Shown here one piece after another: positions 33,027 through 46,197 of a stretch of 64,000 nt of DNA. Position 1 is the first letter of the stretch. Every line of letters starts with the position of its first letter. The notes under the pieces were generated by a model that worked only from the letters and a program-made list of their open reading frames with translations, was not told where the DNA came from and did no database searches. Source of the stretch: Chelatococcus composti (lineage in GTDB: Bacteria > Pseudomonadota > Alphaproteobacteria > Rhizobiales > Beijerinckiaceae); assembly GCF_014201415.1 (NCBI RefSeq), contig NZ_JACHEH010000005.1, positions 1 to 64,000 of the forward strand, in the 5' to 3' direction. The translations under genes and the position numbers were made by a program.

Positions 33027-34076
33027 CTAGGGGATATTGCGCACGATATGCGGCCCGAGGCCGTTGGCGATCGGCACAGGCAGCTTCTTCCAGCACGTGA
33101 TGGCGAGCGCGTATTTCGGATTGCTCGGAGCGAGTTCCGGCAGCTCCCCCCCGGCGGGCAGCCAGTAGCACCAGGACAGCGGCACCACATCCGGCTTCCA
33201 CTGCAGCTTGAAGGTGTAGGTGCCGGCGCCGATGCTGGAGCGCCCGAGGTCGAGGCGGCGCACACCCGCGCCGCACGCCATCTCGATCGCGTTCCAGTAG
33301 AGAAACTCGTTCACGTAATACGACGAGACGTCATAGTCCGACGCGATCCACGGCAGCTCGATCGTGTCGCGCGAGGGGATGGCAAGCGCCGTCGCCACGG
33401 GCAGCCCCCCGAGCTCGACCAGCAGGATCTCCGCCCCGGGCACACGCTCGAGGATGGTGCGGAAGAACCGCTGCCGATGCACCGGCGTGCCGAGATCACG
33501 CATGTTCTTGGCGAAGACGCGGTAGAAGCGGTCGAGCCCCTCCATGCCGGTGCGCGAGAAGACCGCGCCCGAGCGTTCGGCCTTGCGCACCTTGCCGCGC
33601 AGGCGCGAGCTGAGTGCCGTCCAGTGCCGCTCCGGATCGGCCTCCACCGGCACGACGAGCGCCGCCTTGTGATGGCGCACCTGCCAGCCTTTCCCGTCCC
33701 CGAGCCCGGGCTGGGAAACTTGCCTGAGCTCGATGTGCCCGACGCCGAGCCGCGCGGCGAGGCGCATGGCTGCTTCCGCCAGGGCCGCCTCCGCCTCGGG
33801 CCCGTCGGCAACGATGCCACCGTAGTTCACGAAGGGCAGCGAGACGAGATAGTGGCCGAAGAGCCAGCTCTTCATCTCGAAAAGCGGCAGCACCCCGACG
33901 ATGGCGCCGCCGGAGCGCGCTGCAAGATAGTGCGGACGGTGGCCGAAGCTCTGGCTCAGGATCTCGCGCCAGACGAGGGCGTGATAGCAGGACGCATCCG
34001 GCCGCGACGCGACGTAGGCGTCCCAGTCCCCTTCCAGCCGCGTCCCGGCCAGGTCGACGATCTCGATGGATGCCAT
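33027..34076 (-). CDS. FemAB/GNAT-like protein of the XrtA/PEP-CTERM type
   Basis: A 349-residue protein with two GNAT-like halves. The first half contains WREILSQSFGHRPHYLAAR, the second PVATALAIPSRDTIELPWIASDYD and RRLDLGRSSIGAGTYTFKLQWK, which is the FemAB/PEP-CTERM-associated pattern. Members sit in exosortase/EPS clusters, where they are thought to transfer an amino acid or acyl group to a sugar or lipid. It is convergent with the propeller gene and divergent from the deacetylase. It could supply the missing N-acylation of the amino sugar made by the neighbouring cassette, but that is speculation. Confidence 0.82.
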   Translation of the reverse strand: MASIEIVDLAGTRLEGDWDAYVASRPDASCYHALVWREILSQSFGHRPHYLAARSGGAIVGVLPLFEMKSWLFGHYLVSLPFVNYGGIVADGPEAEAALAEAAMRLAARLGVGHIELRQVSQPGLGDGKGWQVRHHKAALVVPVEADPERHWTALSSRLRGKVRKAERSGAVFSRTGMEGLDRFYRVFAKNMRDLGTPVHRQRFFRTILERVPGAEILLVELGGLPVATALAIPSRDTIELPWIASDYDVSSYYVNEFLYWNAIEMACGAGVRRLDLGRSSIGAGTYTFKLQWKPDVVPLSWCYWLPAGGELPELAPSNPKYALAITCWKKLPVPIANGLGPHIVRNIP

Positions 34077-34286
34077 CGCAACGCTCTCCCGGCGTCACTG
34101 CTCATGTCGGGAGAATCTATCCGCAGCGACCCGTGGCGTCTGCTGACCAGAAAGGCGGGCGGGCGGACTCTTCCGGCTGGTCCCGCCGTCCTTCCCGGCA
34201 TCCTTTGCGGAAGATCCGCGACCGACCGGCCTCTTGCGAGTATGGCACGTTCGCGTAAGCGCCGGTCGCCGGCCACTTAAGGGATA

Positions 34287-34326
34287 TACCACCACAGAAC
34301 CGGCGCCGATCCATGCCTGTGTGGTA
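34287..34326. promoter_or_regulatory. Imperfect inverted repeat in the FemAB/deacetylase promoter region
   Basis: TACCACCACAG (34287-34297) pairs with CTGTGTGGTA (34317-34326) with one extra base. It lies in the 431-base gene-free region 34077-34507 between divergent genes. It may be an operator or leader hairpin of the deacetylase-polymerase operon. I see no gene and no clear sigma-70 promoter in the rest of the gap. Confidence 0.3.
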
Positions 34327-34507
34327 ATCTGGAAATGTTCCACTTGGCGCTGGAAAGGAAAAAGCCGCGCCTGCGAAGCCTGCCGCATTTCAATGCTGAA
34401 ACCGGCAAGCAACAGTTTCCGGAGGCGCCGGCCAAATTCCATCCAGATCGTCAAAGCGGCAAGAACGAACAAAGCGCCGGAGTTCAGGAGTGCAGGGGAG
34501 AGGTCAC

Positions 34508-35416
34508 ATGCCGGACGCGGCGCGCGCCTGTTTCATGACGGTGGATGTCGAGGACTGGTTTCACAGCTACAACTACGGGCCGCTCGTCTCCAGGGACCAT
34601 TGGCCGAACTACGAAAGTCGTGTCGAGCGCAACACGGAACGCGTCCTCGACATTCTGGCGCGTTGCTCGGTCCGCGGCACCTTCTTCGTTCTCGGCTGGG
34701 TCGGGGAACGCTTTCCGCATCTCGTGCGGCGCGTCGCCGGCGCCGGCCATGAGGTGGCGTCGCACGGCTACTGGCACGAGCCGGTCTATTCGCTCACGCC
34801 CGATGCGTTCCGCGACGACGTGCAGCGGTCGAAGGCGGTGCTGGAGGACGTCACGGGCCTGCCGGTGCTCGGCTACCGCGCGCCCTGCTTTTCCATCACC
34901 AACTGGGCGCTGCCGATCCTGCGCGAGGCGGGCTTCACCTACGATTCCTCGTTTTTCCCCCTTACCGCGCACGACCGCTACGGCCGCCTCGAGGGCATCG
35001 AGCCGAATGCCGGCCCCTTCGAGGTGATCGAGGGGCTCACGGAACTCTGCATCTCGTGCCTGCCGGCCGGGCCCGTCGCTCTGCCCTGGGGCGGCGGCGG
35101 CTACTTCCGCCTGGTGCCCTTCGGGCTGTGGCGCCTCGGCATCGAGCGGATCCTGCGCCGGGGCGCCCCCTACATCTTCTACATCCATCCGTGGGACATG
35201 GACCCCGGGCAGCCGCACATGGCCGGAATGGGCAGGCTCAACGCCTGGCGCCAGCGCGTGAACCTGTCCCGCTGTGCGGAGCGGCTGGAGGCCCTCGCGG
35301 GCGCCTTTTCCTGGCAGCCCATCGGCGAAGCCCTCGCCGCGCCGCGGGCGGCGCCGTCCGCCCCGCGCCCCGCGCCGTTGCCGACGGGGGCCGTCTCCAT
35401 GGCCGGGAGGGCATGA
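34508..35416 (+). CDS. Polysaccharide deacetylase of the XrtA/PEP-CTERM type
   Basis: A 302-residue CE4-family (NodB-like) deacetylase. The ATG at 34508 follows GGGGAGAGG. The metal-binding motifs are MTVDVEDWF (Asp), SHGYWHEPVYSL (H-x3-H with one spacer change) and YRAPCFSITNW; the catalytic end is FYIHPWDMDP. The combination VEDWFHSYNY is typical of the exosortase-associated subfamily. It would remove N-acetyl groups from the exopolysaccharide or its precursor. It is the first gene of a long plus-strand operon; the next gene starts within its stop codon. Confidence 0.88.
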   Translation: MPDAARACFMTVDVEDWFHSYNYGPLVSRDHWPNYESRVERNTERVLDILARCSVRGTFFVLGWVGERFPHLVRRVAGAGHEVASHGYWHEPVYSLTPDAFRDDVQRSKAVLEDVTGLPVLGYRAPCFSITNWALPILREAGFTYDSSFFPLTAHDRYGRLEGIEPNAGPFEVIEGLTELCISCLPAGPVALPWGGGGYFRLVPFGLWRLGIERILRRGAPYIFYIHPWDMDPGQPHMAGMGRLNAWRQRVNLSRCAERLEALAGAFSWQPIGEALAAPRAAPSAPRPAPLPTGAVSMAGRA

Positions 35417-36675
35417 TGCACGGCATGCGCCCCCATCTCCTCTGCATCGGCGGCGATGACCACGCGCTGCGCATTCCCTTCCTTCTCGCCCTGCGCGAGC
35501 AGGGCCTCAACGTGTCGGCCGCCGGCACCGGTGACGGCGAGGCCTTCGCCCGGGCGGAGATCGACTACTATCGCTATGCCATGAGCCGCTTCATCGCCCC
35601 GCGCACGGACAGGGCGGCGGTCGCTGCCCTGGCGGGCCTGATCGACGAGCTGCGGCCGACGATCATCCAGTGCTTCGACACCAAGCCGGACATCCTCGTG
35701 CCCTTCGCCGCCAGCATCGCGGGTGGGGTGCCGGTCGTCAGCACGATCACGGGGCTGGGCTGGCTCTACTCGTCGCGGTCTCCGCTCGCCCTCGGCCTCA
35801 GGCCGGTGTTCACCTTCCTGCAGCGCCGGGCCTCCCGCCGGACGACCACCCTCGTCTTCCAGAACCGGGACGACGAGGCGTTCTTCGCCCGCCGCGGCCT
35901 TCTCGGCGGCGCCGACCACCGGGTCATCCCCGGCTCAGGCATCGACGTCGCTCGCTTCGACCGCGCCGTTGCCGAGGGCCCCTCGCGGGCCGCGCTCCGC
36001 GCCGAGCTGGGGCTCGGCGATGCGCCGGTCGTCGTAACCGTCACGCGTCTCACGCGGCAGAAGGGCATCCCCACGCTGCTCGAGGCGGCTGCCATCGTGC
36101 ACCGGCGCGCGCCCGAGGTGCGCTTTCTCCTCATCGGCCCGCGCGAGAGCGAGGGGCCGCTCGCCGTCAGCGCGGACGAGATCGAGCGGCACTGGCCCTA
36201 TGTCATCGCGCTCGGCGCCAGGAAGGACGTACCGTCGCTGCTGAAGATGGCCGACGTCTTCGCCTTCCCGACCGAGCTGCGCGAGGGCATCCCGCGCGCG
36301 CTGATGGAGGCCTGCGTCGCCGGCCTGCCCTGCGTGACCACCGACATGCCCGGCTGCACGGACGTGATCGAGGACGGGACGAGCGGCCTCGTGGTCCCCG
36401 CCCGCTCGCCAACCCTCCTCGCCGACGCCATCATGTGCCTGCTGCGCAACCGCACCACGGCGGAGGTCTTCGGCGCACGGGCCTCGGCCCATGTGCGCCA
36501 GGAGCTCAACCTCGAGGTCACGGTCGCGCGCTATGCCGCCGTCTACGACGAGATCATCGGCCGCACGGCGGCGGGGGCACGGCTGTGGCCGGCCTATGCC
36601 CCGTTGATGCTCGTCGATCCGTCCGCACGGCGCAGTGCCTCGCCCCCGGGCCCCTCTGCATCCTCGGCGGGGTGA
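35413..36675 (+). CDS. Glycosyltransferase family 4
   Basis: A 420-residue GT-B glycosyltransferase. It starts at the ATG at 35413, overlapping the deacetylase stop (ATGA). The acceptor domain has FDTKPDILVPFAASIAG and TITGLGWLYSSR; the donor domain has VTRLTRQKGIPTLLEAA, FLLIGPRESEG and the E-x7-E motif as FPTELREGIPRALMEACVAG. The layout resembles PssM/Cap4F-type enzymes that act on 6-deoxy or amino sugars. It ends in a 35-residue loose Ala/Ser/Pro tail. Confidence 0.9.
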   Translation: MMHGMRPHLLCIGGDDHALRIPFLLALREQGLNVSAAGTGDGEAFARAEIDYYRYAMSRFIAPRTDRAAVAALAGLIDELRPTIIQCFDTKPDILVPFAASIAGGVPVVSTITGLGWLYSSRSPLALGLRPVFTFLQRRASRRTTTLVFQNRDDEAFFARRGLLGGADHRVIPGSGIDVARFDRAVAEGPSRAALRAELGLGDAPVVVTVTRLTRQKGIPTLLEAAAIVHRRAPEVRFLLIGPRESEGPLAVSADEIERHWPYVIALGARKDVPSLLKMADVFAFPTELREGIPRALMEACVAGLPCVTTDMPGCTDVIEDGTSGLVVPARSPTLLADAIMCLLRNRTTAEVFGARASAHVRQELNLEVTVARYAAVYDEIIGRTAAGARLWPAYAPLMLVDPSARRSASPPGPSASSAG

Positions 36676-36678
36676 GCC

Positions 36679-38022
36679 ATGCTCCTCGATCTTGTGTTCA
36701 TCGCCGGGCTTCTCCTGTCCACCGCCTCGCAGCTGCGCGTCGATGGCATCCCCTTCGGCCCGGGCGAGGGGCTCCTCCTCGCGTGGCTCGCCATCATGGC
36801 GACGCGCGAGGTGGCGCGGCTCGGCCCGCCGCTGACACCGGCGCTGAGCCGCCTCCTGATCTTCTGGTCCGCCTTCGGCGGCGCACTCTGTCTCGGCGCC
36901 ATGACGGGCTACGCGCTGGGGGACCTGCACGATCCGCGCTGGTTCTATCACGACATCGCGGCCTACACCTTTGCCACCCTCCTCAGCTGCTTCGGCCTGG
37001 TCCACCTCGAAACGGACGGCCGGCTGCGGCCGCGCATGTGGCTGTTCGTCGGGCTCGGCGCGGTGCTGCTCGCGCTGCAGGCGGCCATCGGCTGGATGGG
37101 CGACGGCTTCGGCGGCTTCGAGGCCTGGGAATGGGACCGGCTGCGCGGCCTCACCGAGAATGCCAACCAGCTCGCCCTCACCAGCGCCGTCGTCGGCCTC
37201 CTCGCCCTCCACCTCGCCGACACGGCGCGGCGGCCGCTGCCACGGCTTGCGGCGTGCCTGTGCATCGGCGTCGCCGTCGTCGTGGGACGTCTGACGAAGA
37301 GCGATGCCTTCCTGCTCGTCATCGCGGTGTCGGGCGTCGTCTACGTCGTCATGAAGCTGAAGACCTGGATGCTGGCGGAGCAGAACCCGCTGCCGCTGCG
37401 CTCGGCTGCCGCTTGGGGGCTCGCCCTGTCGCTGCCCTTCGCCGTGGCGCTCGCCGCTCCCTTCGGCTCCTCGATCGCGCAGCAGGCCGAGACGGTTGCA
37501 GCGCAGGCGATGCGCGGCGGCGGCCAGCACGAGACGCGTGAGACGGCCAACCTGCGCTTTGTCATCTGGAGCGACGCCGTGCGCCGCGGGCTCGAGGCCC
37601 TCTCGCTCGGCCTCGGCCCCGGACCGCACCTGAAGATCCCGGACGAGATCGCCGTCGGGCGCCGCAGCTCGGGCGGGCCGCGGGACGTGACGCAGCCGGA
37701 GATCCAGCTCGCTCCGAATTTCGAGGCGCACAACACTGTGCTCGACATCTTCGTGCAGGGCGGGCTGCCGGCGCTCCTGTGCCTCGCCTGGCTGCTCGGC
37801 GGCATCGTCGCCGGCGCCTGGCGACGACAGTTCGATGCGGTCACGACCCTCGTCTGCGGCCTCGCCGCCTACAGCCTGTTCCACTTCATCCTGCGCCAGC
37901 CGGTCGTCTGGTTCGCGCTGGTCGTCTGCCTCGCCGCGACGTCCGGGCGGTTCACCGCCGGCGTCCGCACCGGGATGAGCAAGACCTTTCCAAGGGGAGA
38001 GCGGGAACCATGCGTGTACTGA
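36679..38022 (+). CDS. O-antigen polymerase/ligase-like membrane protein (Wzy-like)
   Basis: A 447-residue protein with about ten membrane segments and a large periplasmic loop (about residues 265-350) containing GGGQHETRETANLRFVIWSD and, before the next helix, NFEAHNTVLDIFVQGGLP. The H-N-x-x-L-x motif after the loop is the mark of the Wzy/WaaL (O-antigen ligase) superfamily. It polymerises repeat units or transfers the finished chain. The Wzz/BY-kinase gene starts 13 bases before its stop. Confidence 0.85.
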   Translation: MLLDLVFIAGLLLSTASQLRVDGIPFGPGEGLLLAWLAIMATREVARLGPPLTPALSRLLIFWSAFGGALCLGAMTGYALGDLHDPRWFYHDIAAYTFATLLSCFGLVHLETDGRLRPRMWLFVGLGAVLLALQAAIGWMGDGFGGFEAWEWDRLRGLTENANQLALTSAVVGLLALHLADTARRPLPRLAACLCIGVAVVVGRLTKSDAFLLVIAVSGVVYVVMKLKTWMLAEQNPLPLRSAAAWGLALSLPFAVALAAPFGSSIAQQAETVAAQAMRGGGQHETRETANLRFVIWSDAVRRGLEALSLGLGPGPHLKIPDEIAVGRRSSGGPRDVTQPEIQLAPNFEAHNTVLDIFVQGGLPALLCLAWLLGGIVAGAWRRQFDAVTTLVCGLAAYSLFHFILRQPVVWFALVVCLAATSGRFTAGVRTGMSKTFPRGEREPCVY

Positions 38023-39947
38023 ACCCCGACGGGATCCTGCGCCTCGCCGAAGCCGGCGGACCAAAGAACCTCGCCGATGATCGCGGGCATGGCTCGCTTC
38101 AGGACCCGACGGCGCCTCCCGCCTTCCTGCACCTCATCCAGGCTCTGCTGCGCCGGCGCTGGATGATCCTCGCCATCGCGACGGCGGGCACGCTGTTCGC
38201 GGCGATCCTCGCCCTGCTGGTGCCGCCGCAGTACACGGCCAAGGCGCAGCTCACCGTCGAGCGCCCCTCCGGTGCCGGCCAGGCGTCCGAGCGCGTCCTC
38301 GACGAGATCATCGACACCCACCTCGCGCTCATCGCCTCGCCGGACCACCTGCGCCATGTGGCGGACAGCCTGCGCCCGCCGCAGCCGGAGAATGCCGAAG
38401 CGGCCGCGCCTGCGGCGCCGCCCAGCCAGCCGGAGGCAACGGACGGGTCGCCTCCCGACGGGGCAAAGCAGGAACCCGGGTTCATCCAGCGGATGATGCA
38501 GCGCCTCGCCGTCTGGATCCCCGCTCTGTCGGGACGCAGCGAGGCGGACCTGTTCCTCGAGAACCTTTTCCGCAAGACCCAGGTCATCCAGGAGCGGCGC
38601 TCGCGCCTCATCACGGTGGCCTTCACCTCGCCCGATCCGCAGACGGCGGCCACCTATGCCAACCGCATCGCCGAGGCTTACGTGGACAGTCTGCGGCGAC
38701 AGATGGAGGAGGACGCCGCCGAACGGCTGAAGGAGATCGACCGCCAGATTGCCGCCGCGCGCGCCGAGGTGCAGGCGGCCCAGCAGGCGGTACAGGATGC
38801 CATCCGCCGCCGCGTCGCAGCCTCCTCGCCGGACGCTGCCGCCGACGCGGACCGCGAGATCCGCGACCTGACCCGCGCCAGCCGCGAAACCGTCGAGTTC
38901 CACGACAACCTCCTGCGCCGCCGCACCGAGCTGAAGGAGGCGCAGGCGAGCATCCGGCCCGGCATCGACGTGCATTCGCGCGCCGCCGTGCCGACCTGGC
39001 CGAGCTCGCACAATCCGCTCCTTTTCGTCATTCCGAGCGCCGTCCTGTCCCTCATGGCGGGCTGCTGGCTGGCGCTGATCCTGGAGCGGGCCGACCGCCG
39101 CCTGCGCAGCGAGCGGGAGGTGCAGCGGGTCCTCGGCATCCCCTGCATCGGGCACCTCCCGCGGGTGCGCGCGGGCACCATCGGCGCACCGCGGCTCCAC
39201 ATCCTCAACCATCCGACCTCGCCCTATTCCGAGGCTGTGCGGAACATCGCCGCGGCACTGCAGGCGCACCACACCGGCCGCGGCTCGCGGGTCGTCCTCG
39301 TCACCTCGAGCGTCGCGGGCGAGGGCAAGTCGACGCTGGCGACCGGCCTTTCGGCCTATTTCGGCACCCTCGGCCGCCGGGTGCTGCTGATCGACCTCGA
39401 CATCCTGCCGGCATCGGAGCGGGAGCCGGCGGCGCTCGCCGTCTGCCGCTCGCCCTCGCGCGAGCAGATGCGGGCGATGATCGCCCCCCAGCCCGAACTG
39501 GGGGTGGACTATCTCGGCCTGTCGCGTCTCGGCGTTGATCCTCTGCTGTTCTTCGAGCCCGAGGGCCTGCCGCGCCTGCTGACCGACCTGCGCAAGTCCT
39601 ACGATGTCATCGTCGTGGGCGGCCCGCCGGTGCTCGGCTCCTCCGAGGCGAGGCTGCTCCCCTCCATCGCCGACCAGGTGCTGTTCGTCGTGCGCTGGGC
39701 CTCGACGAAGCGCGACATCGCCGAGCATGCGCTGAGTTTCCTGCGCCGCTTCCGCGCCGTGGATGAGCCCAGCCTCGGCTCCACCTTCGCCGTGCTCTCG
39801 CACGTGAAGGTGAAGCAGGCCCGCCTTTCCGTCGGCGGTGCGGACGGCAGCCCCGTCATCGACCTCGGTCCCGTCAGGCCAAACCGGGAGAAGCGCCTTC
39901 CCGCGCGGACGGCGGAGCCCGCAACCCCTGTTGAAGGGAGCGTCTGA
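38010..39947 (+). CDS. Wzz/BY-kinase-like polysaccharide co-polymerase (ExoP-like)
   Basis: A 645-residue inner-membrane chain-length regulator. Layout: 45-residue cytoplasmic N-terminus, TM1 (WMILAIATAGTLFAAILALLV), a periplasmic Wzz domain with coiled coil (about residues 70-330), TM2 (LLFVIPSAVLSLMAGCWLALIL), and a cytoplasmic ATPase domain with Walker A TSSVAGEGKSTLATGL, Walker A' LLIDLDI and Walker B DVIVVGGPP. The usual C-terminal Tyr cluster is missing: the last 45 residues contain no Tyr. It may therefore not autophosphorylate in the standard way. It overlaps the polymerase gene and abuts the next (start within stop, TGATG). Confidence 0.88.
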   Translation: MRVLNPDGILRLAEAGGPKNLADDRGHGSLQDPTAPPAFLHLIQALLRRRWMILAIATAGTLFAAILALLVPPQYTAKAQLTVERPSGAGQASERVLDEIIDTHLALIASPDHLRHVADSLRPPQPENAEAAAPAAPPSQPEATDGSPPDGAKQEPGFIQRMMQRLAVWIPALSGRSEADLFLENLFRKTQVIQERRSRLITVAFTSPDPQTAATYANRIAEAYVDSLRRQMEEDAAERLKEIDRQIAAARAEVQAAQQAVQDAIRRRVAASSPDAAADADREIRDLTRASRETVEFHDNLLRRRTELKEAQASIRPGIDVHSRAAVPTWPSSHNPLLFVIPSAVLSLMAGCWLALILERADRRLRSEREVQRVLGIPCIGHLPRVRAGTIGAPRLHILNHPTSPYSEAVRNIAAALQAHHTGRGSRVVLVTSSVAGEGKSTLATGLSAYFGTLGRRVLLIDLDILPASEREPAALAVCRSPSREQMRAMIAPQPELGVDYLGLSRLGVDPLLFFEPEGLPRLLTDLRKSYDVIVVGGPPVLGSSEARLLPSIADQVLFVVRWASTKRDIAEHALSFLRRFRAVDEPSLGSTFAVLSHVKVKQARLSVGGADGSPVIDLGPVRPNREKRLPARTAEPATPVEGSV

Positions 39948-41485
39948 TGGCCCGTACGCAGGGAGTCCGGCGCCATATCGACACCCTGCGTCCGGCGCCC
40001 CCGCAGGAGGCGCGGCCAGGCCTTGTCCTCGATCTGCTCGCCCGCTTCGGCCTGCAGCAGATCGCCTATTGCTACTGGAAGAGCACGGACAAGCTCACGA
40101 GCGCCCTCCACGGCGAAGGCGACATTGATCTTCTCGTGTCACGCTCCGACCATGCGCGGGCGCAGGCCATCCTGCTCTGTGCCGGCTTCAAGTTCTTCCC
40201 CTCGGCCGGGGACAGAGAGCCGGTCGGCGTCTCCACCTACCTCGGCTTCGACGAAAGCAGCGGACGGCTCGTCCATGTCCACCTCCACACGCGCCTCGTC
40301 AGCGGCGGGCCGCTGACGCGCTACTGGCACCTGCCGTGGGAGGAGGCTTTGCTGGCCCGGGCCGTCCAGCACGCCCACCTGCCGGTCAGGCATCTCGACC
40401 CGGCGGCGGAGGCGCTGCTGCTCGTCACGCGCTGCTGCCTCGAATGCGGCGGCTGGGACCCCGTCTCGCTGCGGCGCGGTGCCGCGAAGCGGGCAGAGTT
40501 CGCCGCCGCGCGCCAGGCTCTCGCGGCGAAGGTTCCGCGCGAGGAGCTGCACGCCCTCGCCGCGACGCTCCTGCCGGCGAACATTGCCGCGGACCTGGCG
40601 GATGCCTTCGCCGACGGCCCGCTGCCCGACCGGCGTTCACCCCTCGCACGCGCCATCCGGCGGCATCTTTCCGAGGGCGGGTGCAGCTACAACAGGCCCG
40701 AGGCCGCGCTGCGCAGCGTGGCGCGGTCGGTCTCGTGGCTCGTCCGGCGGCTTAACCGGGATGTCATCCGGGCCCCGCGCCCGTGGAACCGCCGCCCCGC
40801 TGCGGGCGGGCTGGTGGTGGCACTCGTCGGTGTCGACGGCAGCGGCAAGTCCACGCTGCTTGCGGAACTGACACGATGGCTCGGGCCGAAGGTGGACGTC
40901 CTGCCGGTCTATTTCGGCACCGGCGACGGGCGCCCCTCGCTCGTCCTGCGGCCGCTGAAGTGGCTGATGCCGCTCGCGACGCGCGCTGCCGGCAGCAAGC
41001 CGCGCGTCGCGTCGCACGGCAAGCCCTCCGCCGGGCCCCCTTCCCTCGCCTACAGCCTCCTGCTCACGGTCTGGGCGCTCGCCGTGGCGGCCGACAAGCG
41101 CAGCAAGCTCACCGCCGCGAGGCGGGGCGCCAACCGCGGCCTTCTCGTGCTGACCGACCGCTACCCGCAGAACGAGACCCGCAGCTTCAACGACGGCCCG
41201 CTGCTGGAGCGCCTGCCGGCCGCGCCGGGCTGGCTGCGTCGGCTGGAGCGGGCGGTCTATGCACGCGCCGAGCGACTGCCACCCCACCTCGTGCTCAAGC
41301 TCGTGGCAGCTCCCGAGACCCTGGCCGCGCGCGAGCCGACGATGGATCCCCTGGTCATCCGCCGCCGGCTCGATGCGCTGTCCGGCCTCGCCTTCGGCGG
41401 CGCGGACATCGTGTGCCTCGATGTCGACAGGCCGCTGCAACAGGTGATCCTGCAGGCGAAAAGGGAAATCTGGCAGCGTCTCTAG
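39947..41485 (+). CDS. Nucleotidyltransferase-like domain fused to a P-loop (thymidylate-kinase-like) domain
   Basis: A 512-residue two-domain protein. The N-terminal part (about residues 25-230) looks like a minimal nucleotidyltransferase: YCYWKSTDKL followed by EGDIDLLVSRSD, a G-D-x-D-L metal motif. The C-terminal part (from about residue 285) is a P-loop kinase: VVALVGVDGSGKSTLLAEL, with VLTDRYPQNE as a lid/substrate motif like that of thymidylate kinase. No membrane segment is evident. Its place between the Wzz-like and Wzx-like genes, with the start overlapping the previous stop, implies a role in making or modifying the exopolysaccharide, perhaps phosphorylation. I do not know a characterised homologue. 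Confidence 0.78.
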   Translation: MARTQGVRRHIDTLRPAPPQEARPGLVLDLLARFGLQQIAYCYWKSTDKLTSALHGEGDIDLLVSRSDHARAQAILLCAGFKFFPSAGDREPVGVSTYLGFDESSGRLVHVHLHTRLVSGGPLTRYWHLPWEEALLARAVQHAHLPVRHLDPAAEALLLVTRCCLECGGWDPVSLRRGAAKRAEFAAARQALAAKVPREELHALAATLLPANIAADLADAFADGPLPDRRSPLARAIRRHLSEGGCSYNRPEAALRSVARSVSWLVRRLNRDVIRAPRPWNRRPAAGGLVVALVGVDGSGKSTLLAELTRWLGPKVDVLPVYFGTGDGRPSLVLRPLKWLMPLATRAAGSKPRVASHGKPSAGPPSLAYSLLLTVWALAVAADKRSKLTAARRGANRGLLVLTDRYPQNETRSFNDGPLLERLPAAPGWLRRLERAVYARAERLPPHLVLKLVAAPETLAAREPTMDPLVIRRRLDALSGLAFGGADIVCLDVDRPLQQVILQAKREIWQRL

Positions 41486-41498
41486 AAAGACAGGCCCC

Positions 41499-42269
41499 AT
41501 GATCGTCGAGTTCTTCGGCCCACCGGGTGCCGGCAAGACCACGCTGGCCCGCATGCTCCTCAATCGACTGAGGGCCCACGGCTACGAGGCGGCCATGTGG
41601 CACAGCAGCCGTCCGACAGAGCTCGTGCCGCCGAGCGGACCGGACCGGATTACGCGCCAGCTCGCTCCAATCCGCCGCATGCACCGCTCCGTGGCCGAGA
41701 CGCTGTCCATCGTCAGCCATCCGCTCGCCAACGCCGAGGAGATCGCGCTCGCCAACCGTCTGCTGAAGGCCCTGCCGCCGCGCGGCCTCCTCACGCGGCT
41801 GCGCGAGGCCCAGTACATCTGCCGCATGGCCCGGGCGTGGTACGCCGCCGCGCGGATGGGGCGGATCACCATCTTCGACCAGGGGCTGGCGCAGGAGCTC
41901 TGCTCGCTCCTTATCCTCTCCGGCCATGGCGAGGCCGCGCCGCTCGCCACGCTGCTCGAGGGCCTTCCACTCGCCCAGCTCTCGGTGCTCGTCACGGTCT
42001 CGCCGACCCTGCTGAAGCGGCGGACGGTCGACAGGCTGTCGCGCCTGCAGTTCGTCGAGCGCCTCCTCGAGCGCCGCAGCAGGCAGGACTTCTTCCCGGT
42101 CGCGCACCAGCTTCATGATGTCCTTTCCAGCAGCGGCCGCACCGTCGTGTGCGCCAGTTCGGTGGACGAGCAAGAGACCGAAACGAGCCTCGAGCGGATC
42201 GAGCAGGAGGTGATCCGCCAGTACGCGGCCGTGCAAGACAAACAAGAAGGGGGGAGGGCCACGGAATGA
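41499..42269 (+). CDS. P-loop kinase-like protein of the exopolysaccharide locus
   Basis: A 256-residue soluble protein. It opens with MIVEFFGPPGAGKTTLARML, a Walker A motif at residues 7-14; ITIFDQGLAQELCSLLIL holds an acidic Walker B-like segment, and VLVTVSPTLLKRRTVDRLSRLQ a basic segment where kinases bind phosphate. It is a dNK/Tmk-like fold in general pattern, without a recognisable substrate motif. It lies 13 bases after the fused nucleotidyltransferase/P-loop gene and overlaps the flippase gene, so it is co-expressed with both. It may work with the fused protein on the same substrate. Confidence 0.75.
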   Translation: MIVEFFGPPGAGKTTLARMLLNRLRAHGYEAAMWHSSRPTELVPPSGPDRITRQLAPIRRMHRSVAETLSIVSHPLANAEEIALANRLLKALPPRGLLTRLREAQYICRMARAWYAAARMGRITIFDQGLAQELCSLLILSGHGEAAPLATLLEGLPLAQLSVLVTVSPTLLKRRTVDRLSRLQFVERLLERRSRQDFFPVAHQLHDVLSSSGRTVVCASSVDEQETETSLERIEQEVIRQYAAVQDKQEGGRATE

Positions 42270-43657
42270 AACCGATGAAGTCGACCATGACGGCCCTCAA
42301 CGCTCCCGGGAGCGAAGCACCGCGAAGCAAGACGGCAGAGGCGCAGCCATTCTCGGTCTCCTCGGCCGCCGGGCGCGTCCGGCGCGGCGGTGTCGTCGCC
42401 TTCTTCGTCTACAGCGTCGGCTACGCCGTCACCTATCTCTCGCAGCTCGTCGTCGCCCGCCTGATCGGCGCGCAGGACTACGGCATCTATGCCTACGTGA
42501 CGGCCTGGGCCACAGTCCTCATCTATGTCTCGACCCTCGGGTTCGATGTCGCGCTGCTGCGTTTCGTGCCCGTCTACCGCGCGAAGGATGCCTGGGGGCT
42601 GATGCGGGGCGTCGTGCGCTACGCCCGGCGCAGCGTCGCCATCGTCGGTTCGGTTCTCGCGCTGGCGAGCGCCGGCCTCTTCCTCGCGTGGCAGCCCGAC
42701 GACGCGCTGGCCGTGCCATTCATCATCGGCTTCGCCACGGTTCCCGTCGTCGCGCTGCTCAGGGTCCAGTGCACCGTGCTGCGGGCTTCGGGCGCCGTCG
42801 TCGCCGCGCTTGCGCCGGACCGCATCGTGCGCGAGGGCAGCCTCGTGGTGCTGGTCTCCATCGCGACCCTCGTCCTCGGATGGCAGGTCAGTGCGCAATG
42901 GGCCCTCACCGCCGCACTGGTCGGCGCCGTGACCGGCCTGCTGCTCGCGTACTATGCCCAGCGCGTGCACCACCCCCTGCCCGGCGGGAGCCTGCCGCCG
43001 TCATACGACACCCCGGCCTGGCGCAAGGCGGCCCTGCCCCTGATGATCGCGGGAGCGACGGAGGTTCTGATCAACCGCACGGGCGTCATCGTGCTCGGCT
43101 GGACGGACCACACGCAGGAAGCCGGCATCTACAGCCTCGCCTTCAACGTGGCGCTTCTCGTCACCCTGCCGCGCGTTGCCGTCAACACGCTCTTCGCCCC
43201 GGCCATCTCCAGCCTGCACGCGGCCGGAGACCGGCAGGCCCTCCAGGCCCTGGTGCGGCGCACGGCCCAGTGGACCCTGGTCGCCGCGGCGGCCATCGCG
43301 GCAGTCATCTTCGTCCTCGCCGACCCGCTGATGTCGTCCTTCGGCGCCGCCTACCGCGAAGGCGTCGCCCCGCTGCGCGTCCTGCTCGTGGCGCAGGTGC
43401 TCGCGGTCGGCGCCGGATCCCAGCTCTACGTGATGACGATGACGGGGCACGAGCGCAGCGCAGCGGTGCTGCTCGTGGCAGCGGCCTCGGCCAACGTCGT
43501 CGTGAGCCTCATGCTGGTGCAGTTCTTCGGCGTCGTCGGCGCCGCCATCGGCTCGGCCGGGACGCTGCTGGCCTGGAACGCCATGATGGCCCTGTGGATC
43601 TGGCGCAGGCTCGGCCTCATGCCGGGCCTGCTGTGCCTGCGCACGTCGCAGGCCTGA
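42266..43657 (+). CDS. Oligosaccharide flippase (Wzx-like, MOP superfamily)
   Basis: A 463-residue protein with 12-14 predicted membrane segments. The first segment region GGVVAFFVYSVGYAVTYLSQLVVARLIGAQDYGIYAYV is the usual polysaccharide-biosynthesis (MVF/MOP) N-terminus, and the middle loop contains LPLMIAGATEVLINRTGVIVLGW. It flips lipid-linked repeat units to the periplasm. Its start overlaps the stop of the preceding gene (ATGA). With the Wzy-like and Wzz-like proteins it indicates a Wzx/Wzy-dependent pathway. Confidence 0.9.
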   Translation: MKPMKSTMTALNAPGSEAPRSKTAEAQPFSVSSAAGRVRRGGVVAFFVYSVGYAVTYLSQLVVARLIGAQDYGIYAYVTAWATVLIYVSTLGFDVALLRFVPVYRAKDAWGLMRGVVRYARRSVAIVGSVLALASAGLFLAWQPDDALAVPFIIGFATVPVVALLRVQCTVLRASGAVVAALAPDRIVREGSLVVLVSIATLVLGWQVSAQWALTAALVGAVTGLLLAYYAQRVHHPLPGGSLPPSYDTPAWRKAALPLMIAGATEVLINRTGVIVLGWTDHTQEAGIYSLAFNVALLVTLPRVAVNTLFAPAISSLHAAGDRQALQALVRRTAQWTLVAAAAIAAVIFVLADPLMSSFGAAYREGVAPLRVLLVAQVLAVGAGSQLYVMTMTGHERSAAVLLVAAASANVVVSLMLVQFFGVVGAAIGSAGTLLAWNAMMALWIWRRLGLMPGLLCLRTSQA

Positions 43658-44738: not shown

Positions 44739-44814
44739 CCGCATGCTCCCTGCCCGCCGCCTGCCACCACGCGGGCAAGAAGGGCACCCTCAAACCAGCA
44801 CCAGGGCCGCGACC

Positions 44815-46197
44815 ATGAACGAGACGCTCTTTTCCGACGGCATGGGGCACGGGGCGGGGCGCGACGGCGGCGCCAGCACGGAGCGGCGGTTTGCCCGCGC
44901 CACGATGCTGGCGCCGCAGCGCCGCCCGTTCGCGCGCCTTCCCCTCGCCGTCGCGGCCGCCATGCTGCTCCTCGTCTTGCCGGCACGGGCGGACTTCCGG
45001 GTCGACACGGGGGACGTGATCGAGATCGTCGTGACGTCCGCGCCCGAGCTGCAGCGCCGCCTGCCGGTGCGCATCGACGGCAACATCTCCTTTCCCCTCA
45101 TCGGCACCATGAAGGTCGCCGGCCTCACCGCCTCAGAGCTGCAGGACCGCGTCCAGGCGGCGCTCTCGGCCAAGGTCTTCCAGCGGCGGATGCCCGACGG
45201 CACCCAGGTCGACATCATCATCGGCGCGGACGAGGTCACGGCCAGCGTCGTCGAGTACCGGCCCGTTTACGTCAACGGCGATGTGCTGAAGCCGGGCGAA
45301 TACGCCTATCGCCCGTCCATGACCGTGCGCCAGGCGGTGACGGCGGCCGGCAGCTATTCGCTGGTGCGCTTCGGCACGGGCGACCGCTTCGCCGAGACGG
45401 CCAATTTCGAGGCCGAGTTCGGCGCCCTGTGGGCCGAATACGTGCGCGCCGAGGCGCGCATCTGGGGTCTGCGCAAGCTCCTGGGGCAGGAGCAGCCCTT
45501 CGACTATGCGACGCTGGTGGGCGGGCCCATCACGCGCGCCAGCGCCAGCGAAGTCCTCGCCATCGAATCCGAGCGTGTGGCCGCTGTCGAGGCCGATCAG
45601 CAGCGCCGCCGGGATGCCCTCGTGCGCGCCCTCAAGGAGTGCGACGACGAGATCGCCGTTCTCGCCGAGCGTCAGAAGGTCGAGGACAAGAGCGCCGCCG
45701 ACGACGCGGAGGAGCTGGCGCGCATTACCAAGCTCTACGGCCGCGGCGAACTCATCAGCCAGCGGGTGACGGATGCGCGGCGTGCCGTGATGCTGTCCGA
45801 GTCGCGGCGCCTCGAGACGACGTCACACCTCATGCAGATCCGCCGGCTGCGCGTCGAGCTGCAGTCGCAGCTCGACCGGCTCGACGGCGAGCTGCGCATG
45901 GGCCTGCTGCGCGAGCTGCAGGAGGCCACCGGCAGGGCCGAAGGCCTGCGCGCGCGCATCAACGGCCTGACGCTCGTCCGGCAGCGCACCCTCAGCCTGC
46001 CGGAGGCGTCCCCGAGCGCGGCGCTGAAGCCCCAGATCATGATCGTCCGCAAGACGGACGAGGGCCGCGAGCACTTCGTCGCGGACGAGGACACGGAGCT
46101 CTACCCCGGTGACGTGCTGCAGGTCTCCGTCAGCCCCGTGAACGCTGGCGGCGTCGCCATGGGCACCACGCCGGACGGCGCGGTGGCCGTGCGCTGA
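44815..46197 (+). CDS. Polysaccharide export protein (Wza/ExoF-like)
   Basis: A 460-residue periplasmic/outer-membrane export protein. A signal-like segment RLPLAVAAAMLLLVLPARA (about residues 43-61) precedes the export domain FRVDTGDVIEIVVTSAPELQ with the SLBB-like VYVNGDVLKPGEYAYRPSMTV. A coiled coil of about 180 residues follows (SERVAAVEADQQ to RLRVELQSQLDRLDGE), and a second export-like segment near the end (LYPGDVLQVSV). The long coiled coil after the export domain is the rhizobial ExoF arrangement. It lacks a lipobox Cys. The ribosome-binding site is weak. It is the last gene of the exopolysaccharide locus. Confidence 0.85.
   Translation: MNETLFSDGMGHGAGRDGGASTERRFARATMLAPQRRPFARLPLAVAAAMLLLVLPARADFRVDTGDVIEIVVTSAPELQRRLPVRIDGNISFPLIGTMKVAGLTASELQDRVQAALSAKVFQRRMPDGTQVDIIIGADEVTASVVEYRPVYVNGDVLKPGEYAYRPSMTVRQAVTAAGSYSLVRFGTGDRFAETANFEAEFGALWAEYVRAEARIWGLRKLLGQEQPFDYATLVGGPITRASASEVLAIESERVAAVEADQQRRRDALVRALKECDDEIAVLAERQKVEDKSAADDAEELARITKLYGRGELISQRVTDARRAVMLSESRRLETTSHLMQIRRLRVELQSQLDRLDGELRMGLLRELQEATGRAEGLRARINGLTLVRQRTLSLPEASPSAALKPQIMIVRKTDEGREHFVADEDTELYPGDVLQVSVSPVNAGGVAMGTTPDGAVAVR

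Follow-up and report, generated by a model that had tools for sequence, protein, structure and literature searches.

A putative kinase module beside the Wzx flippase in a polysaccharide locus of Chelatococcus composti

To our knowledge, the general view of Wzx flippases is that they need no partner that uses ATP. In Chelatococcus composti, two genes for P-loop proteins are packed between a Wzz-like and a Wzx-like gene, within the 64,000-nucleotide stretch of contig NZ_JACHEH010000005.1 that was analyzed as a whole and that we call the window, and the question they raise is what such proteins do next to a flippase. A preliminary description of this DNA, made from the sequence, read the pair as a possibly undescribed modification module. 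That reading is partly supported by the results given here. The description of the module as undescribed agrees with the literature searched, in which we found nothing relevant on PF14907, on the combination of a nucleotidyltransferase (NT) with a thymidylate kinase (TMPK) domain, or on fusion of a kinase to Wzx. What the present analysis adds is a coupling between kinase and flippase and a link to Escherichia coli.

The Wzx/Wzy-type locus and its two additional genes

The pair is flanked by genes on the same (forward) strand. Ahead of it lie genes for an XrtA-type polysaccharide deacetylase (34490..35416; TIGR03006, 300 bits), a GT4 glycosyltransferase (35416..36675), a Wzy-like polymerase (36679..38022; PF04932, Wzy_C) and a Wzz/BY-kinase-like co-polymerase (38010..39947), with the starts of the GT4 and Wzz/BY-kinase genes inferred from the annotated genes of C. 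daeguensis. A Wzx flippase (42266..43657; PF01943) and a polysaccharide export (OPX) protein (44743..46197; PF02563) follow. Wzx, Wzy, Wzz/BY-kinase and OPX are thus found all together by Pfam, which identifies this as a Wzx/Wzy-dependent EPS locus. The pair shares an operon with the Wzy, Wzz/BY-kinase and Wzx genes.

The first gene of the pair (39947..41485, forward strand, ATG start) encodes a 512-aa protein in which an NTP_transf_5-like (MNT-type) domain, at residues ∼25–270, is followed by a TMPK-fold kinase domain at residues ∼285–512. The second (41499..42269, forward strand, ATG start) encodes a 256-aa protein, a second TMPK-fold P-loop protein with the motifs GPPGxGKTT and DQGxxQ and the residues R175/R179. 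Both open reading frames had been placed exactly in the preliminary description, and its remark that the starts overlap or adjoin is also correct: the 512-aa gene overlaps at its start the stop codon of the Wzz/BY-kinase ORF ahead of it (TGATG, 39945–39949), 13 bp separate the end of that gene from the start of the 256-aa gene, and the latter overlaps the Wzx start codon (ATG at 42266) in the sequence ATGA. This ATG is preceded by the Shine-Dalgarno-like stretch GGGGAGGG. In comparison with C. sambhunathii, dS/dN is 0.60/0.133 for the 512-aa gene and 0.66/0.149 for the 256-aa gene, and the purifying selection on both equals that on the neighboring Wzx, glycosyltransferase and deacetylase genes. 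Chance open reading frames can be eliminated because of this selection and the synteny of the pair across phyla. By hydropathy, the 512-aa protein has no membrane segment; the 256-aa protein has a single doubtful stretch (residues 149–167), which is part of the soluble fold in the AlphaFold2 model. Neither protein has a convincing membrane segment, and a cytoplasmic location at the flippase is the one we infer.

Genes for an XrtA-type FemAB protein (TIGR03019) and the deacetylase (TIGR03006) occupy 33027–35416; both families are also found in XrtA/PEP-CTERM-type EPS loci, but the C. composti genome contains no exosortase, which rules out XrtA protein sorting. The OPX protein (44743–46197) has a long HlyD-like C-terminal/central stretch, with a type_I_hlyD match at residues 219–415. 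In the Wzz/BY-kinase (38010–39947), VVGGPP stands where BY-kinases carry the Walker B Asp (IDxPP), and the Tyr cluster at the C terminus is missing; the C. composti protein is probably a pseudokinase. Comparable Walker B loss is seen in related loci L007 and L008 (LSGPP) and L021 (INGPP); other loci retain IDGPP.

Two TMPK folds and a nucleotidyltransferase-like domain

AlphaFold2 models computed from 24-sequence alignments are confident, with pLDDT values of 85.8 (512 aa) and 88.5 (256 aa). When these were compared with the PDB by Foldseek, nearly all of the top matches for either protein were thymidylate kinases (best E values of 2.5e-7 for the 512-aa and 6.8e-6 for the 256-aa protein), and a profile search of the 512-aa protein also points to thymidylate kinase. 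Beyond NTP_transf_5, Pfam gives only weak P-loop matches, and no NCBIfam model fits either protein. The thymidylate-kinase-like P-loop domain of the preliminary description is borne out by these models, and the 256-residue protein, which had been called simply a second P-loop protein, has that P-loop and can be described further as a TMPK-fold kinase-like protein. Structure prediction and fold search, suggested at the time as a check on both domains, thus recovered the TMPK fold in both proteins and left the NT fold unconfirmed.

An ordinary dTMP kinase is ruled out: scores against TIGR00041 (dTMP kinase) are 12.7 and 12.6 bits, far below the cut-off of 83.25, and the canonical tmk of C. composti is encoded elsewhere in the genome. 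The TMPK domain has the fold and the P-loop/DR architecture in common with thymidylate kinase but does not have the AYQ motif, which the genome's own Tmk carries. In the 24-sequence alignment, the invariant elements of the TMPK half are the P-loop (GVDGSGKST, residues 295–303; 40829..40855, forward strand), a Y-G-GDG motif, DR-PQ (core DRYPQ, residues 404–408) and R462. The corresponding alignment of the 256-type, whose P-loop in C. composti is GPPGAGKTT, has G12, K13, D127, Q132, R175 and R179 invariant. The Arg of the DR motif, the acceptor-phosphate site in dTMP kinases, is retained in the TMPK half; the 256-type has Gln or Glu there (DQ in the 256-aa protein). A P-loop and a TMPK fold would not by themselves prove phosphotransfer, but the invariance of the kinase motifs makes a phosphorylating role plausible. 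To that extent the earlier proposal that a kinase could add phosphate stands.

The N-terminal half of the 512-aa protein contains the GDIDLL metal motif that had been noted before, and D59 and D61 within it are invariant in all 24 aligned sequences, as are H110 and H112; the GxxDxD metal motif of PF14907 is therefore present. The core motifs CYWKS (residues 42–46), GxxDxDLL (56–63) and HxHxH (110–114) lie at 40070..40288 on the forward strand. With hmmscan, PF14907 (NTP_transf_5) matches residues 58–164 and scores 30.4 bits, the cut-off being 31.2; the score rises to 31.5 bits once neighboring stretches are added in a genome search, and a profile–profile match by hhalign spans 139 columns at 89% probability (E 2e-6). 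For the assignment we draw on Pfam, the motif and hhalign, as TMPK matches fill the list of the whole-chain fold search. With PF14907, an uncharacterised nucleotidyltransferase family, the domain shares the GxxDxDLL motif, but it differs from canonical members, drawn for comparison from other genomes, in having HxH for [DE]xH, CYWKS for lKG, and the fusion to a kinase. The third-carboxylate position, [DE]xH in most canonical PF14907 proteins, is His112 in 24/24 aligned sequences. The nucleotidyltransferase of the preliminary description is thus real as a PF14907-like domain, but nucleotidyl transfer is doubtful because of this His, and the domain may not be an active nucleotidyltransferase.

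Pairing across phyla and fusion to Wzx

Across 84,980 species genomes, 36 loci with relatives were found, and 16 of these match most of the query at an identity of at least 42%. C. sambhunathii has the same locus (80% identity), and C. daeguensis carries it on plasmid pTAD1. A survey of co-occurrence, which had been proposed along with the module, was carried out with profiles and places a 256-type gene directly beside the NT-TMPK gene in 21 of the 24 readable loci. The pairing spans four phyla, from Rhizobiales to Gemmatimonadota, Bacillota and Bacteroidota (including Prevotellaceae); the exceptions have no 256-type gene within 3 kb (L019), one gene in between (L026) or a distance of 8 kb (L029). 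Wzx comes directly after the pair in 12 proteobacterial loci, usually with Wzz/BY-kinase, Wzy and GT4 ahead, and the commonest proteobacterial order is GT4, Wzy, (asparagine synthase), Wzc, NT-TMPK, 256-type, Wzx. In the loci of Bacillota and Bacteroidota, Wzx is kilobases off or undetected and several glycosyltransferases stand beside the pair. The NT-TMPK fusion occurs in 6 and the 256-type in 14 of 397 genomes of the order, in keeping with the earlier statement that neither is a standard part of Wzy-dependent pathways. The two are not strictly interdependent, since several loci with a 256-type gene and Wzx have no NT-TMPK. These sequence comparisons support the view that the pair is an accessory module conserved in some Wzx/Wzy-type loci. 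An oddity confined to the C. composti stretch is ruled out by the relatives and the conserved pairing in other phyla, and a viral origin is unsupported, as no relative of the 256-aa protein was found on viral contigs. Sister loci also contain genes that are absent from the C. composti locus: asparagine synthase between Wzy and Wzc (L088, L090, L011 and L014) and, close by in part of these loci, a ∼920-aa AMP-ligase/thioesterase protein.

The most striking feature of the finding is a kinase–flippase fusion, which falls outside the coordinates given in the preliminary description. By following 256-type matches with long open frames, we traced single ORFs of ∼720–750 aa that join a 256-type kinase to Wzx in five alphaproteobacterial genomes of three genera (g60, g52 and g67): L085 (8273–10531), L088 (9644–11866), L089 (7602–9776), L092 (9338–11500) and L094 (9300–11531). 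Sequencing error is unlikely because the fusions span three genera. Pfam places the P-loop of the L088 fusion at residues 3–25 and PF01943 from residue 303, and in the related loci L090 and L091 the two genes are separate. The kinase is N-terminal to the first Wzx helix; the N terminus of MOP-family flippases is, as far as is known, cytoplasmic. A further chain of 695 aa (L099) combines NT, TMPK and 256-like domains (GLTGAGKS, LDQG), although the third domain is weaker, at only 21 bits. Read together, the fusions suggest that NT-TMPK, 256-type and Wzx act as one functional unit. Natural fusion of the 256-type to Wzx links it to the flippase and a lipid-linked substrate; with regard to the targets offered earlier (the polysaccharide, its lipid carrier or an associated protein), this leads away from the finished polymer or a protein.

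We favor, with a confidence somewhat under one-half, the reading that the two genes encode a cytoplasmic ATP-using tailoring module at Wzx that phosphorylates the lipid-linked repeat unit. Behind it stand the domains themselves, TMPK folds with intact kinase motifs in both proteins, a pairing that is conserved, and natural fusions of NT with TMPK, of NT and TMPK with a 256-like domain, and of the 256-type with Wzx. In this scheme the two TMPK-fold kinases, one forming the C-terminal half of the 512-aa protein and the other the 256-aa protein, would place phosphate on the repeat unit while it is linked to undecaprenyl, or on a small group that it carries, before Wzx flips it, and the NTP_transf_5-like domain would bind the same substrate or attach a further group via the new phosphate. 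There could be two successive phosphorylations, first on a hydroxyl acceptor (256-aa protein, DQ) and then on a phosphate acceptor (TMPK half, DR), an order that would fit the retention of the DR Arg in the TMPK half and of DQ in the 256-aa protein. The lipid-linked unit as the substrate, the order of the steps and the final chemical group are what we infer. The nearest functional precedent is the lasso-peptide pair PsmK/PsmN, a kinase followed by a nucleotidyltransferase homologue that acts on the phosphorylated residue (PMC9266682). The substrate there is a peptide and the genes are separate. Taken more broadly, the kinase pair probably phosphorylates sugar building blocks or controls the flippase.

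The pair could instead supply an activated precursor, the TMPK half phosphorylating a small molecule, the NT half making a nucleotide-activated donor of it and the 256-aa protein adding a second phosphate, with the product passed to the transferases of the locus. Kinase and nucleotidyltransferase-like domains do share one chain here, the locus is a polysaccharide locus, and several glycosyltransferases adjoin the pair in Bacillota and Bacteroidota. HldE and FKP likewise combine a kinase and a nucleotidyltransferase in one chain, in a glycan pathway, but they differ from the 512-aa protein in their unrelated folds, soluble sugar substrates and absence of a flippase link. We consider this route unlikely, given that a membrane-bound substrate better fits a 256-type protein that forms one chain with Wzx in five genomes and accompanies Wzx where NT-TMPK is missing, that the third carboxylate is gone, and that we know of no MNT-type enzymes that make NDP-sugars.

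Direct fusion of a kinase fold to Wzx would also suit P-loop proteins that serve as regulatory or energising ATPases, gating or driving Wzx (or coupling to Wzz/Wzy) and placing no phosphate onto the glycan. The BY-kinase here, without its Walker B Asp and Tyr cluster, might be replaced by such another ATP-using control. We regard this as quite unlikely, because the acceptor-side and lid residues (DRYPQ and R462; R175/R179), which would be needless for a pure switch, match the P-loop in conservation, and because the conserved NT domain would be left unexplained. The natural kinase–flippase fusions offer a direct handle on how a substrate may be finished or licensed ahead of flipping.

Relatives in E. 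coli and in sphingolipid loci

Homologues of the TMPK half in E. coli are YghR, YghS and YghT (about 60–77 bits), single-domain proteins with GxDGxGKST and DR[YF]PQ motifs; no text linking the two was found in the literature searched. Of 5426 complete E. coli genomes, 4651 carry the yghS–yghR region. In a strain whose locus is complete, the neighboring genes encode YghQ, YtfJ, LptF, LptG, serine palmitoyltransferase, an ACP, a reductase/epimerase and an acyl-AMP ligase. In locus L043 (8149–12737), and more generally in E. coli genomes, yghQRST stands beside sphingolipid genes (spt, acp, LptF/LptG paralogues and acyl-AMP ligase). The same grouping occurs on plasmids of Klebsiella michiganensis and Pseudomonas veronii, and in one further genome a true Spt (59%) shares a contig with three YghR/S/T-like kinases. 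The E. coli locus is the sphingolipid locus already reported from strain BL21, and yghQRST goes unmentioned in the excerpts of that account considered here (PMC9386255). The gene neighborhoods suggest that yghQRST is part of sphingolipid head-group formation or transport.

Just as the pair adjoins Wzx, the yghR/S/T genes, in a lipid pathway, adjoin the gene for the MOP-family flippase YghQ, and this argues for a module that works at the flippase. The two arrangements differ in that yghQRST has neither an NT domain nor a 256-type protein, contains three paralogues and belongs to a sphingolipid rather than an EPS locus. A tree separates the NT-fused EPS clade from the unfused sphingolipid clade, with three labels misread, since the contig ends within L022, L031 is split, and L032 has its kinase domains in tandem. 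The placement of the module in a Wzx/Wzy locus is thus true of C. composti, but the kinase family also occurs in sphingolipid loci. The 256-aa protein is not a YghR orthologue: it is to the TMPK half that YghR, YghS and YghT are all homologous, and the 256-type forms a TMPK-fold family of its own. A further reading, to which we give only a small chance, is a Wzx coupled to its own cytoplasmic kinase, a separate protein here and part of one polypeptide elsewhere; by using ATP to phosphorylate the lipid-linked unit or the flippase complex, the kinase would license or drive flipping, and the partnership of kinase and flippase would recur as YghQRST in the E. coli sphingolipid locus.

The sister clade bears on one more alternative, that the target of the kinases is the polyprenol carrier or some other membrane lipid and not the sugar unit. 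YghR/S/T do lie in sphingolipid loci by a flippase, LptF/LptG and serine palmitoyltransferase. However, the C. composti genome has only a generic Spt paralogue (∼30%) and the context of its locus is EPS, which leaves a direct sphingolipid role unsupported; the loci with the fused form are polysaccharide loci; and CpgB, the ceramide kinase from such sphingolipid loci, is of the sphingosine/DAG-kinase type and has no TMPK fold (PMC10331486). Lipid phosphorylation is, on balance, improbable, and we retain the repeat unit as the more plausible acceptor. The homology to YghR/S/T, which are unexplained and present in most complete E. coli genomes, suggests that yghQRST functionally belongs with the sphingolipid pathway and gives a tractable laboratory model. 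A variant of the unfused kinases is found in Bombella apis, where a 475-aa ORF (L032, 9986–11410) contains two tandem YghS-like kinase domains and adjoins a YghQ-like flippase.
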